A stretch of 64,000 bases of DNA from NCBI RefSeq assembly GCF_008087625.1, contig NZ_CP042997.1, positions 1,116,001 through 1,180,000 on the forward strand. Reading direction: 5' to 3'. Under the pieces are notes generated by a model, which searched no databases, was not told where the DNA came from, and saw only the letters and a program-made list of their open reading frames with translations. The translations under genes and the position numbers were made by a program. Source of the stretch: Aquisphaera giovannonii (GTDB taxonomy: Bacteria > Planctomycetota > Planctomycetia > Isosphaerales > Isosphaeraceae). Shown piece by piece: positions 41,652-46,005 of this stretch. Within the stretch, counting starts at the first letter, position 1; every line of letters starts with the position of its first letter.

Positions 41652-43024
41652 TGCCCACGGCCGCCGGGACCGACGTCGGGCCGGCCCGCGGGCTCGGGCG
41701 CGGGGGGCCCGCGTCCTCGCCTTCGCCCCCGTCCCGCCCGCGGCTCGCGGAGGGCCTCTATCGCGTCGTCTGGCGTTGGCACTTCTACGCCGGCCTGCTC
41801 GTCACGCCGGTGCTCCTGGTGGTGACGCTCACCGGCGCGGCATACATCTTCCGGAGCGAGATCGAGGACGCGATCCACGCCCGGCTCCGGTTCGTCGAGC
41901 CTGGCCCGTCGCGGGTGGGGGCCTCGACGCTCGTGGACCTGGCGAGGGCCTCGCGGCCGGGCGAGGTCCCGACGGCCCTGGAATTGCGCGCCGACCCCCG
42001 CCGCAGCGCGGTCGTCCGGTTCGACGGGCCGTCGCCGCGAGGGCAGTCGGCGGTGTACGTCGACCCGTACAACGGCCGCGTGCTGGGGGCGAGCGGCGAG
42101 GACGCGACCGGGGCCTTCTTCCAGGCCGTGCTGGACCTCCACCGCACCCTCTTCCTGGGGACGACCGGCCGGATCGTCAACGAGCTGACGGTCGGCTGGA
42201 CGATCCTCCTGATGGTCACGGGCTCCTACCTCTGGTGGCCGCGCAAGAAGGAGAAGGTCCGGGGCGTCTGGTGGCCCCGATGGCGGGGCAAGCCGTACGT
42301 CGTCCTCCGCGACCTGCACACGGTCTTCGGGTTCTATCTGATGGCCCCGATGGTCGTGATCCTCGTCACGGGGCTCTTCTACGCGGCCGTCTGGGGCTGG
42401 GGATTCGACCGGGTTACGCGCAACCTCCGCGGCAAGGCGGAGGCGGCGGGCGCCGGCCCGAAGCGGGAGGGGCCGGAGGGGCCCGCGGTGGTTCCGCGGC
42501 GGTTCGACGGGCTGGTGGCGGCGGCCCGCGATCGCTATCCCGACCGGGACCTGTCGCTCACCCTCGCCCCGGCGGGCCGGCCGGTGTCGGTCATCGCCAG
42601 CAACGACTGGAATGGGCCCTACGGCGAATACGTGATGGCGCGGTTCCAGCTCGATCCGGCGACCGCGGAGATGATCTCCCACCGAACCCTGGCGGAGGAT
42701 GACCATTACTGGTGGCACGGCTGGGTCTACCCCCTGCACGTCGGGAGCATCTATGGGCCGGCGACGAAGGTGATCTGGATGGCCGCCTGCCTGGTCCTGT
42801 CGGCCCTGCCGGTGACCGGGATCTGGATGTGGTGGAGTCGCCGGCCGAAGGGCCGCACGGGCTTCCCCCGGAGGCCCGAGGCCCCCCTGCCCCGGAGCTG
42901 GATCGCCCTGATCACGGCGCTGGCGGTCCTCCTGCCGGTGGCCGGCGCGAGCATCGTTTTGATCCTCGCCGGCGAGTGGACCTTCCGCGCGGTCCGTCGG
43001 GTGTCCACGGGGCCGCTGGTCTGA
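41651..43024 (+). CDS. PepSY-associated TM (PiuB-like) membrane protein
   Basis: A 457-residue inner-membrane protein of the PepSY_TM family, linked in other bacteria to siderophore uptake or iron reduction. It shows TM1 WRWHFYAGLLVTPVLLVVTLTGAAYIFRSEIE, a PepSY-like periplasmic segment (SAVYVDPYNGRVLG), LHRTLFLGTTGRIVNELTVGWTILLMVTGSYLWWPRK, LRDLHTVFGFYLMAPMVVILVTGLFYA, a second PepSY-like segment, then HGWVYPLHVGSIYGPATKVIWMAACLVL and a final TM pair. Conserved His residues in TM starts fit haem/metal-linked electron transfer, which is inference. It ends the operon behind the Fur-like box. Confidence 0.88.
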   Translation: MPTAAGTDVGPARGLGRGGPASSPSPPSRPRLAEGLYRVVWRWHFYAGLLVTPVLLVVTLTGAAYIFRSEIEDAIHARLRFVEPGPSRVGASTLVDLARASRPGEVPTALELRADPRRSAVVRFDGPSPRGQSAVYVDPYNGRVLGASGEDATGAFFQAVLDLHRTLFLGTTGRIVNELTVGWTILLMVTGSYLWWPRKKEKVRGVWWPRWRGKPYVVLRDLHTVFGFYLMAPMVVILVTGLFYAAVWGWGFDRVTRNLRGKAEAAGAGPKREGPEGPAVVPRRFDGLVAAARDRYPDRDLSLTLAPAGRPVSVIASNDWNGPYGEYVMARFQLDPATAEMISHRTLAEDDHYWWHGWVYPLHVGSIYGPATKVIWMAACLVLSALPVTGIWMWWSRRPKGRTGFPRRPEAPLPRSWIALITALAVLLPVAGASIVLILAGEWTFRAVRRVSTGPLV

Positions 43025-43278
43025 GCCGGCCCGCACTACCGGGCGAAACGGACGGGGGTCCGCAACATTTCGCCCCGGCCGCCGAATGCCCGTCCGGATG
43101 ATGACCGGGAGGGTCCAGGAACATCCCGTCGGTCTCGACGCCGGATCGCGCCGCCTTACCTCGCTCACCGAGCCCCGGCGCCGGCGTCGGCCTGACCGGC
43201 CCCCTCTCGCGGCATCTCCTGATCGCTGCCGTGCGCGTCGCGACTCGCTCCCTGTCGTACCCTTCCGGAGGCTCTCCC

Positions 43279-43725
43279 ATGCGGCGACCCCGAACGCTGA
43301 TCGTCCTGGTCCTCCCCGTCGCGGCCCTCGTCGCGGCGGCCGCGGGCGACGAACCGAAAGCGGAGGCCGGCGCGCGACGGGAGCTCGTCGGCACCTGGAG
43401 GCTGGTGAGCGCGCGATACGGGGGGCAGGAGTACAAGGCGCCCGAGGGGACGACGACGATCAAGCACGTCACCCCGACGCAGTTCATGTGGGCCAGCTAC
43501 GACGCCGAGGGCAGGGTCTCGCGGGCGGCGGGCGGGCGTTACTCGCTCGACGGCGACGCGTACGTGGAGACGCCCGAATACGGGCTGAGCGAGGACTTCG
43601 ACGTCATCAAAGGCAAGCCGCAGGCGTTCCGCTGCAAGGTCGAGGGGAAGACCTGGCACCACGACGGGAAGCTCAGCAACGACCTGACCATCGAGGAGGT
43701 CTGGGAGCGGGTGGAGCCGAAGTAG
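43279..43725 (+). CDS. Secreted lipocalin-like protein
   Basis: A 148-residue protein. The first ~20 residues are a signal peptide (TLIVLVLPVAALVAAAAG). The mature part ELVGTWRLVSARYGGQEY ... THVTPTQFMW-type strand ... GGRYSLDGDAYVETPEYG ... LTIEEVWERVE looks like the small lipocalin-like/DUF4488-type beta-barrels common in planctomycetes. The ATG at 43279 has GGAGG 8 bases upstream. It is a lone gene between two operons. The ligand is unknown. Confidence 0.7.
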   Translation: MRRPRTLIVLVLPVAALVAAAAGDEPKAEAGARRELVGTWRLVSARYGGQEYKAPEGTTTIKHVTPTQFMWASYDAEGRVSRAAGGRYSLDGDAYVETPEYGLSEDFDVIKGKPQAFRCKVEGKTWHHDGKLSNDLTIEEVWERVEPK

Positions 43726-43792
43726 CCGGGGACCTCCCGGGGCCCGTCCTTCCGGCCCGGCGAGGGCCAAATCCTCGCCCCCGGCCGCATCC

Positions 43793-43822
43793 TTGACAGT
43801 GCCGGGAGGTGTCTCCTACCAT
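43793..43822 (+). promoter_or_regulatory. Strong promoter of plsX-fabD operon
   Basis: Perfect TTGACA (43793-43798), an 18-bp spacer and TACCAT (43817-43822). It is the best -35 in the window. The predicted start near 43829 leaves a ~145-base leader before plsX. Confidence 0.7.
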
Positions 43823-43828
43823 GGAGCC

Positions 43829-43972
43829 CATCTGGCACCGGCCGCGCCGGGCCGCGTGGGGATGCAGTCCGATGCGACTCGGGATGCGAGGCCGGGGAAC
43901 CCCCCGGCCGGGGCATCCCGTGCTTTTTTGTGTCCGTGTCCGGCAGGATAGATAAAGACGGAGATTGATGCG
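43829..43972 (+). ncRNA. Structured leader or small RNA ahead of plsX
   Basis: From the predicted transcription start to the plsX ATG. It includes a two-part hairpin with CGGGATGC (43880-43887) pairing with GCATCCCG (43913-43920), and GGCCGGGG (43890-43897) with CCCCGGCC (43902-43909). A T6 run follows (43924-43929), the pattern of an intrinsic terminator. It could be an attenuator of plsX-fabD or the end of a ~100-nt RNA. The plsX ribosome site GGAG follows. Confidence 0.5.
43880..43929 (+). terminator. Terminator-like hairpin with T6 in plsX leader
   Basis: Two stacked 8-bp stems separated by small bulges, then TGCTTTTTTG. It lies between the promoter and plsX, so full termination would silence the operon unless antitermination occurs. 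Confidence 0.65.
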
Positions 43973-45046
43973 ATGCGGATTGCGCTGGACGCGATGGGCG
44001 GGGACTTCGCCCCGGGGCCGATCGTCGCCGGGGCCGTGGAGGCGGCGATCGACCTGCCGGAGCTGACGGTCGTCCTCGTCGGCGACGCCGAGAAGGTCGA
44101 GGCCGAGCTCGCCAAGGCCCCGCAGGCGCCCCGCGACCGGCTCCCCGTCGTCCACGCCAGCCAGGTCATCGGGATGGAGGACAAGCCCGTCGAGGCCCTC
44201 CGCAAGAAGCGGGACAACTCGATCTCGAAGTGCTGGGGCCTGCTCGCCGCCGGCGAGGTCAAGGCCGTGGTCTCGGCCGGCAACACCGGCGCCATGGTGG
44301 CCTCCGCCCTGTTCAACGCCAAGATGTTCCTGCCGGGCGTGCGGCGGCCGGGCATCGCCGCGATCTTCCCCTCGCACCAGGGCCCGATCGTCATCATCGA
44401 CGTCGGCGCCAATATGAACGCGAAGGCCGAGGACCTCTACCAGTACGGCATCATGGGGTCGATCTACGCCGAGGAGATCCTGGGCGTCACGCACCCGAGG
44501 ATCGGCCTCCTGAACGTGGGCACCGAGGACGAGAAGGGGACCGACCTGACCCGGGCCACCCGGTCGCTGTTCGCGGAGAGCCCCTGGGCCAGCCGGTTCG
44601 TCGGCAACGTCGAGGGCCGGGACATCTACGAGGGCCACGTCCGCGTGGTGATCTGCGACGGGTTCGTCGGCAACGTCCTGCTGAAGGCCGGGGAGGGGGC
44701 GGTCGAGTTCCTCTTCTCGATCCTCCGCGAGGAGCTGGCGCGGATGCTGCCGGAGCTCCCCGGGGGCGCCGGCCAGAAGGTCGCCGGCAGCCTGGGCCGG
44801 CTCAAGAGCCGGTTCGAGTACGAGGAGTTCGGCGGCGGCCCGCTGCTGGGCATCCGCGGCGCCTGCATCATCTGCCACGGGGCGAGCGGCCCCCGCGCCA
44901 TCAAGAACGCCCTGCGGGTCGCGCACTCGCTGGCCGACGACCGCCTGAACGCGCGGATCGTCGAGCAGCTCGGCGCGAAGCTCGAGCCGGGCGAGGCCCC
45001 GACCCCGGGGGCCGCCCCTTCCGAGGCCGGCACCGCCGCCGGCTGA
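43973..45046 (+). CDS. plsX: Phosphate acyltransferase PlsX
   Basis: A 357-residue enzyme that makes acyl-phosphate from acyl-ACP for phospholipid synthesis. The signature MRIALDAMGGDFAPGPIVAGAVEA is at the N-terminus, with SAGNTGAMVASALF, PIVIIDVGANMNAKAEDLYQYG, LLNVGTEDEKGTDLT, FVGNVEGRDIYEGHVRVVICDGFVGNVLLKAGEG and the C-terminal GGGPLLGIRGACIICHGASGPRAIKNAL. The last ~20 residues (Pro/Ala-rich) are an extension. The ATG at 43973 follows GGAG. It is usually preceded by rpmF and followed by fabH-fabD; here fabD follows after 47 bp and neither rpmF nor fabH is present in the window. Confidence 0.97.
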   Translation: MRIALDAMGGDFAPGPIVAGAVEAAIDLPELTVVLVGDAEKVEAELAKAPQAPRDRLPVVHASQVIGMEDKPVEALRKKRDNSISKCWGLLAAGEVKAVVSAGNTGAMVASALFNAKMFLPGVRRPGIAAIFPSHQGPIVIIDVGANMNAKAEDLYQYGIMGSIYAEEILGVTHPRIGLLNVGTEDEKGTDLTRATRSLFAESPWASRFVGNVEGRDIYEGHVRVVICDGFVGNVLLKAGEGAVEFLFSILREELARMLPELPGGAGQKVAGSLGRLKSRFEYEEFGGGPLLGIRGACIICHGASGPRAIKNALRVAHSLADDRLNARIVEQLGAKLEPGEAPTPGAAPSEAGTAAG

Positions 45047-45093
45047 CCGGCCCGCCGCGACCGCCCGCGGCCCTTCCTTCGAGGTCATCCGAG

Positions 45094-46005
45094 ATGCCCA
45101 AGATCGCCTTCCTGTTCCCCGGCCAGGGCGCCCAGGCCGTCGGCATGTGCAAGGAGCTCGACGCCGAGCTCCCCGCGGTCCGCGAGCTGTTCGACCGCGC
45201 CAACGAGGTCCTCGGCTTCGACCTGCGGGCCCTCTGCTTCGAGGGGCCGGCCGACGCGCTGGAGGCCACGGACGTCAGCCAGCCGGCGATCTTCGTCGCC
45301 AGCCTGGCGGCCCTGGAGAGCCTGAAGGCGACCGACCCGGCGGCCGTCGAGGCCTGCGCCGGGGCCGCCGGGCTCTCGCTGGGCGAGTACACCGCGCACG
45401 TCTTCGCCGGGACGATGGACTTCGCCTCCGGCCTGGAGGTCGTCCGCCGCCGCGGCCAGGCCATGCAGGCGGCCTCGCTGGCCACCCCCAGCGGCATGAC
45501 GAGCGTCCTGGGCCTGGACGAGGCCAAGGCGGACGAGCTCTGCCGCCTGGCCGCGCCGCACGGGAGGCTCTGGAAGGCCAACATGCTGGGCCCCGGCAAC
45601 ATCGTCGTCTCCGGCGAGGCCGCCGCGCTGGCCGCCGTGCCGGCCCTGGCCGAGGGGCTCGGCGCCATGAAGGTCGTCCCCCTGTCCGTCGCCGGCGCCT
45701 TCCACTCCGAGATCATGAAGCCGGCCGACGAGCAGCTCGCCGAGGTCCTCTCCCGGGCCGACCTGAAGGCCCCGCGGATCCCGGTCTACTCCAACGTCGA
45801 CGCCCGCCCCCACTCCGACCCCGAGGAGATCCGCGGCACGCTCGTCACCCAGGTCCTCCACGGCGTCCGCTGGGAGGAGTCCATGCGGAACATGATGGCC
45901 GACGGCTTCGACGCCTTCTACGAGATCGGCCCCGGCCGCGTCCTGACCGCGTTGCTCAAGCGGATCGACCGCAAGACCCCCTGCACCCACATCCCCGCGC
46001 GGTAA
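45094..46005 (+). CDS. fabD: Malonyl-CoA:ACP transacylase
   Basis: A 303-residue enzyme that charges ACP with malonate. It has MPKIAFLFPGQGAQAVGM (oxyanion-loop Gln), catalytic S95 in GLSLGEY, R120 (VVRRRGQAM) and catalytic H204 in SVAGAFHSEIM. The usual GHSLGE motif has Leu in place of His here. Length is normal. GAGG precedes the ATG at 45094. It is second in plsX-fabD and partners functionally with fabG-acpP-fabF at 9-12 kb, which would normally be directly downstream of it. Confidence 0.97.
   Translation: MPKIAFLFPGQGAQAVGMCKELDAELPAVRELFDRANEVLGFDLRALCFEGPADALEATDVSQPAIFVASLAALESLKATDPAAVEACAGAAGLSLGEYTAHVFAGTMDFASGLEVVRRRGQAMQAASLATPSGMTSVLGLDEAKADELCRLAAPHGRLWKANMLGPGNIVVSGEAAALAAVPALAEGLGAMKVVPLSVAGAFHSEIMKPADEQLAEVLSRADLKAPRIPVYSNVDARPHSDPEEIRGTLVTQVLHGVRWEESMRNMMADGFDAFYEIGPGRVLTALLKRIDRKTPCTHIPAR

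Follow-up and report, generated by a model that had tools for sequence, protein, structure and literature searches.

What does the RNA between a strong promoter and the first codon of plsX do, and does it act on the transcript of two lipid-synthesis genes? The question is raised by the window, a stretch of 64,000 nucleotides from a 10.5-Mb genome of the family Isosphaeraceae. A preliminary description had pointed here to a near-consensus promoter and to a leader with two stacked 8-bp stems and a T6 run ahead of the plsX ribosome site, and had taken the arrangement for an attenuator or a short RNA. Both the promoter and the leader were confirmed by comparison with relatives, and the functional reading was partly supported. 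The locus is laid out as follows.

43793-43798, + strand: -35 box TTGACA, part of the sigma-70-type plsX promoter
43817-43822, + strand: -10 box TACCAT, 18 bp from the -35 box
43793-43822, + strand: whole sigma-70-type plsX promoter, 10 of 12 consensus matches
43829-43972, + strand: predicted 5' leader of the plsX-fabD mRNA, deduced from the promoter; leader fold z -3.0
43880-43887, + strand: lower stem, 5' arm CGGGATGC, nearly invariant in 23 genomes from 8 genera
43890-43909, + strand: upper stem-loop GGCCGGGG-AACC-CCCCGGCC, letters varying between genera, pairing mostly kept
43890-43897 and 43902-43909, + strand: upper-stem arms GGCCGGGG and CCCCGGCC
43913-43920, + strand: lower stem, 3' arm GCATCCCG, pairing with CGGGATGC
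43921-43929, + strand: 3' tail TGC-TTTTTT; family consensus NNN-T-Y-R-T-Y-T
43960-43963, + strand: Shine-Dalgarno-like GGAG of plsX, 9 nt ahead of the ATG
43973-45046, + strand: plsX, phosphate acyltransferase (TIGR00182, 314.5 bits, cut-off 243.4; PF02504)
45094-46005, + strand: fabD, malonyl-CoA:ACP transacylase (TIGR00128, 286.5 bits, cut-off 260.9)

A promoter scan of positions 42500-45500 returned the plsX promoter as its sole sigma-70-like site (shuffle mean 0.1), and the pattern CTTGACA-N17-19-TANNATG matched only there in the 64-kb window. Judging from the position of the -10 box, transcription would start near 43829, about 7 nt downstream; the plsX start codon is the ATG at 43973, and the 47-base gap between the two genes makes it likely that fabD lies on the same transcript. 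Within 400 nt upstream of plsX, TTGAC-N17-20-TANNAT was present in 44 of 45 Isosphaeraceae genomes, where dinucleotide shuffles expect 0.10, with a spacer of 18 in 38 genomes and 17 in six; the exact hexamer TTGACA was found in 42. Kept family-wide in this way, the pattern is a candidate expression signal for Isosphaeraceae. A promoter-like match also preceded plsX at 7 of 27 loci outside the family. At 18 of these 27 loci, a motif of the L32 gene (rpmF) was found within 500 nt upstream of plsX, compared to 0 of 45 in Isosphaeraceae. The outside set comprised 22 loci that are planctomycete by title or kinship; L060 and L087 hold less than 500 nt upstream, and L029, which has no recognisable start, was dropped, reducing the set from 28 to 27. 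The promoter may have arrived when plsX left the rpmF-plsX arrangement. Ahead of it in the window lies a 148-aa gene (43279-43725) that has an LVGTWRLVS motif and no match in Pfam or NCBIfam at E 0.001, and fabD is followed by tandem genes of the Uma2 family (PF05685; 46084-46761 and 46783-47514), whose first 40 residues are almost identical.

The leader folds at -74.3 kcal/mol, a value equalled by one of 200 shuffles. Its T6 run occupies 43924-43929, three bases past the lower stem, and the hairpin before it is the strongest one preceding any of the 10 T-tracts in the window (4 consecutive T's, 5 of 7; both strands), at -35.4 kcal/mol versus -22.8 for the next. A terminator scan of 42500-45500 omitted this hairpin and reported one other site, with 1.0 expected; the scan tolerates a gap of at most 2 bases between stem and T's, and the gap here is 3.

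We found the hairpin between promoter and plsX, on the plsX strand, in 23 of the 45 Isosphaeraceae genomes and in 8 of 21 genera. All 23 carriers form a stable GC-rich hairpin (-26.1 to -36.8 kcal/mol), and CGGGATGC...GCATCCC is exact in 21, with one G-U change each in G050 and G017. A covariance model built from the 22 distinct sequences recovered the 23 at E <= 1.6e-8, as it should by construction. With strict filters and a limited number of candidates scored per genome, under which weak copies may be missed, searching the 45 genomes returned no second copy comparable to the plsX hairpin. The best other place reached E 3e-4 (G050:C1), followed by G059:C406 at 6.4e-4, and both of these resemble coding stretches by eye. 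An equally restricted class-wide search of 297 genomes, 252 of them outside the family, gave matches in 12 outside genomes at E 3e-6 to 6.7e-3. No PlsX-like sequence was present in the 13 stretches around these matches, each covering about 1 kb on either side, or more where the contig permits, and a control locus was positive. The best outside match, in G226, was set aside as a GGAGGTCGGAATGCGG-type repeat by eye.

The letters of the lower stem alone, in turn, are not specific to plsX. Among 40 genomes, 18 contained the bare pattern CGGGATGC-N10-40-GCATCCCG, at 25 places in total, of which 8 are at plsX and 17 are not; a reversed control gave 0. Where a hairpin also matched on the minus strand, that match was not taken as a further copy. 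One of the 17, G000:C1:4825743-4825779, was rejected as a further element, having no PlsX within 1037 bases and an E-value of 0.02; by eye it resembles a long hairpin.

Taken together, a promoter in 44 of 45 genomes against 0.1 in shuffles, a hairpin in 23 of 45 and the lack of a comparable second copy speak against chance, and we are highly confident that the plsX leader element is real. We describe it as a predicted, conserved cis-acting RNA element ahead of plsX-fabD for which no prior description was found. Many of the relatives' genomes are drafts or come from metagenomes, the model's E-values are rough, and the sequences compared are related to one another.

In a PlsX tree of 41 family members, omitting four of the 45 loci with too little PlsX (L144, L145, L146 and L148), all carriers except G017 formed one group (support 81) that also contained the hairpin-less G006, so placed that at least three changes are needed. 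A single group including both G017 and G006 was not rejected (p-AU 0.43), and the element was probably gained about once within Isosphaeraceae. Since the hairpin is missing in G006, which retains plsX and the promoter, and was not found in 21 further family genomes, it is not generally required for plsX expression, and these genomes count against the reading favoured below. In the G006 leader (L004) we noticed two copies of ATGCCGNAAGGCGTTGA, as if repeats had replaced the element.

The two stems are under different constraints. Between genera, the 16 nt of the lower stem are 98.4% identical, versus 53.9% at fourfold-degenerate sites of plsX (220 between-genus pairs). Among the 22 distinct sequences, double compensatory changes affect 0 of its 8 pairs, and the entire variation consists of one end pair lost and two one-sided changes that preserve pairing; the lower stem varies too little for covariation to be seen. 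The upper stem, in contrast, changes its letters and mostly keeps its pairing, as terminator stems do. Sixteen of 23 upper stems were more stable than 95% or more of the shuffles made from them (mean z -2.5), whereas 7 of 23 did not, G017 clearly so. In 345 of 440 cases the stem's own halves beat between-genus chimeras, and 84 of 40320 permutations of eight genus representatives matched or beat the real pairing, in a test that uses related sequences. Of the compensatory changes that the preliminary description had proposed to look for, the lower stem shows none, and in the variable upper stem pairing is mostly kept. The alignment of carriers comprises 22 of 23, G043 being identical to G044 and omitted.

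Two further ideas were rejected. The 5' arm holds AUGCGGA, as the plsX start does, which would suit start-codon mimicry; however, the start differs in 9 of 23 carriers (AUGCGCG in five, AUGCGUG in three, AUGCGCA in one), and the 3' arm shows no matching change. A second upstream copy of GGGATGC is confined to G000 and two g13 genomes and is not general.

The tail behind the hairpin is conserved in its own right: T at +4 in 23 of 23 carriers, Y at +5 in 23, R at +6 in 21, T at +7 in 23, Y at +8 in 23 and T at +9 in 21. The T6 run itself is not. The longest run reaches 6 in the window's genome only; it is 5 in G014, and the remaining 21 carriers have 1-4. T occupies +1, +2 and +3 in only 12, 7 and 2 of 23 carriers, so that the tail has no conserved U tract adjacent to the stem and lacks the proximal U's of most terminators in the same genomes. 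The mean stem-proximal T content was 0.30 in the plsX element as opposed to 0.61 in 29 hairpins downstream of tmRNA and 5S genes; these controls were chosen by energy, and some (L186, L193, L197-L202 and L227, by eye) are not the terminator or have swallowed its U tract, so 0.61 probably understates the proximal U's. No clear terminator was seen by eye downstream at L198, L201 and L202. Over the whole tail (+1 to +9), 3 to 7 of the 9 positions are T, with a mean of 5.0, comparable to the weaker controls such as the 5S hairpins of G051 (5 of 9) and G002 (4 of 9). Proximal U's are not universal among the controls, the tails of the G049 and G002 5S terminators being weak. By eye, the tmRNA and 5S terminators of these genomes have varied GC-rich stems followed mostly by immediate U's, for example TTTTTTCGTTTT and TTTTCTTTT, and their stems differ between genera, unlike the plsX lower stem. 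The tmRNA terminators at L187, L192, L194, L199 and L200 share a common tail, TTTTTTCGTT, with a CGACGAAACCCC flank in four of them and differing loops.

Compared to an intrinsic terminator, the element therefore has the stable GC-rich hairpin and the U-rich stretch that follows it, and differs in its missing stem-adjacent U's, its fixed stem letters and its location upstream of the gene that it would silence. When polymerase pauses or terminates, its RNA-DNA hybrid covers the region 4-9 nt past the stem. The conserved pyrimidines lie there, a position compatible with a hairpin-stabilised pause. A U-rich stretch displaced by three bases suggests pausing or weak, factor-dependent termination rather than efficient release. 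In Bacillus subtilis, passages of PMC8060035 report that 2 nt added between hairpin and RNA end converted a terminator to a pause, and passages of PMC12288461 place pause hairpins 10-13 nt from the RNA end.

We therefore favour, tentatively and short of calling it probable, a hairpin acting in cis, at which RNA polymerase would pause or weakly terminate and which is probably recognised via its fixed lower stem. RNA polymerase would start at the conserved promoter and transcribe the leader, and a very stable hairpin would form in each transcript, followed by three free bases and the U-rich UYRUYU at +4 to +9. Hairpin and displaced U tract together may then hold the polymerase or weakly terminate it 37-150 nt before the plsX start codon. 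A putative factor, either an RNA-binding protein or an elongation factor, would read the lower stem and set the flow of polymerase into plsX-fabD. Such a factor is suggested by the letters of the lower stem, and not just its pairing, being fixed. The same observation cuts the other way, as pause and terminator hairpins need no fixed stem letters and near-invariance requires an extra binder. In G011, only 37 nt separate the hairpin from the plsX ATG, so plsX must be read through the hairpin there.

A bolder version, which we regard as doubtful, would make the element a lineage-specific class of leader RNA, in which a dedicated factor on the lower stem switches between polymerase pausing or termination and read-through, thereby setting the supply of acyl-phosphate and malonyl-ACP from which Isosphaeraceae make membrane lipids. 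This would be factor-controlled pausing at a lipid-synthesis operon.

Instead of acting on transcription, the hairpin might serve the finished message, as a protein-binding, stabilising or processing structure that affects translation, half-life or cleavage of plsX-fabD mRNA. This is unlikely in our estimate, though far from negligible. Fixed letters in the lower stem suggest that they are recognised as such, by prediction the hairpin forms constitutively (ddG 14.5-20.9 kcal/mol) and its distance to the start codon, 37-150 nt, varies in a manner that stability elements tolerate; yet the conserved NNN-UYRUYU tail would go unexplained unless the protein reads the tail too, and stability hairpins have no need of fixed letters. 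The classical attenuator of the preliminary description, a premature intrinsic terminator opposed by an antiterminator, a leader peptide or an aptamer, is improbable. What stood of this claim is the conserved, structured leader with its paired upper stem; the window's hairpin and T6 do look terminator-like and outrank every other hairpin before a T-tract in the window, and the T content of the tail equals that of some terminators of the clade. The remainder of the claim fell with the unconserved T6, the missing stem-proximal U's, the lack of any Rfam match at threshold and the lack of an antiterminator: forbidding the lower stem costs the above 14.5-20.9 kcal/mol in 23 of 23 leaders, with no competing fold. 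Moreover, only 24-34 nt of RNA precede the hairpin in G014, G017, G046 and G047 (g13/g16), which leaves insufficient room for an aptamer or an ordinary leader peptide. Hairpin lengths of 40-46 include every remainder modulo 3, so that a conserved frame through the hairpin is excluded. With no competing fold and, in those four genomes, no such room ahead of the hairpin, a switch, if any, would have to be thrown by a protein or another factor.

The other half of that description, a separate small RNA roughly 100 nt long that has a promoter and a terminator to itself, is very improbable, even if promoter and terminator-like hairpin lie about 100 nt apart in the window. Twenty-one genomes keep the promoter yet lack the hairpin, the sequence ahead of the hairpin varies in length (about 24 to 135 nt) and from genus to genus, Hfq (PF17209) was found in 0 of 45 family genomes by a search whose control was positive in 5 of 14 known genomes, and the short gap in G011 leaves no space for a second promoter. 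Nor do we give much credence to a DNA operator with the two CGGGATGC arms as transcription-factor half-sites: letters are indeed fixed in both arms, but all total lengths between 40 and 46 occur, which precludes helical phasing, the upper stem retains its pairing and the tail is conserved on one strand. Hardly any weight falls on control by CsrA, which would have to bind GGGAUGC in the newly made 5' arm ahead of hairpin closure. In its favour, GGAUG is similar to the consensus site of E. coli CsrA, the protein is present in 45 of 45 family genomes, GGA occurs in 22 of 23 lower stems and GGGATG occurs elsewhere in carrier leaders 4 times versus 1.4 in shuffles (9 of 200 shuffles had as many). 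Against this, the lower-stem GGA is predicted to be base-paired in 22 of 22 and a GGA at the tip exists in some carriers only; GGA elsewhere in carrier leaders is not enriched (50 versus 63.7), and if anything enrichment is seen in hairpin-less leaders (GGA 48 versus 40.5, GGATG 6 versus 2.3), whose genomes encode CsrA as well. Independently of the leader, CsrA, a global RNA-binding regulator, is unusually multiplied in these bacteria, with 4 to 13 matches (PF02599) per genome across all 45 Isosphaeraceae and 7 in the window's genome.

In 8 of 8 genomes examined, the main NusG carries F/Y-x-V/I-R-E-T-P, with E at the N81 position when set against the letters around N81/T82 of B. subtilis NusG. 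The TTNTTT-like tail is suggestive of NusG as a partner, but neither the spacing nor these residues fully fit. None of Hfq, CsrA and NusG is supported enough to be named as the partner. As far as described in PMC12288461 and PMC8060035, the NusG/NusA-stimulated leader pauses of B. subtilis, such as that of trp, resemble the plsX element in that an RNA hairpin in a 5' leader precedes a non-template stretch rich in T, and the TYRTYT of the plsX tail resembles TTNTTT. In these pauses, however, TTNTTT lies at -11 to -6 and the hairpin 11-12 nt from the RNA end, while the plsX motif starts 4 nt past the stem, a geometry that would imply 14 nt between hairpin and RNA end, and its second position is mostly C.

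Among known systems, the nearest precedent, going by its description in Naville and Gautheret 2010 (PMC2965389), is the fabH-leaders, candidate attenuators apparently of bacilli. They share with the plsX element a terminator-like leader before a fatty-acid synthesis gene, recognised by comparative analysis, and differ in gene (fabH), in phylum and in having been chosen as premature terminators; the comparison is by description rather than alignment. Rfam gave no match at the gathering score anywhere in the window; four sub-threshold matches, the best at 18 bits against a gathering score of 62, look like chance. In Firmicutes, plsX-fabD is controlled by FapR, a DNA-binding repressor that acts on a short palindrome. 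The likeness lies in the genes controlled; FapR acts on a DNA palindrome, whereas the plsX element is a predicted RNA hairpin of varying length. Limited open-access searches of titles and abstract openings found no description of the plsX element, and the main texts of two RNA-discovery surveys (PMC11109978, PMC8632094) mention neither planctomycetes nor plsX. Leader control of lipid genes had been put forward as new for planctomycetes, and this claim withstood these limited open-access searches.

Fatty-acid and phospholipid synthesis starts with PlsX and FabD, and the inner membranes of planctomycetes are unusually extensive. To our knowledge, control of lipid-synthesis operons has so far been by DNA-binding repressors as a rule. 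Both a pause or weak termination read by a factor and the regulation of lipid synthesis by the leader element are what we infer from comparative evidence. A conserved leader RNA ahead of plsX-fabD would be a first handle on how planctomycetes set their membrane-lipid output, and a case in which control of lipid synthesis at the RNA level could be tested.
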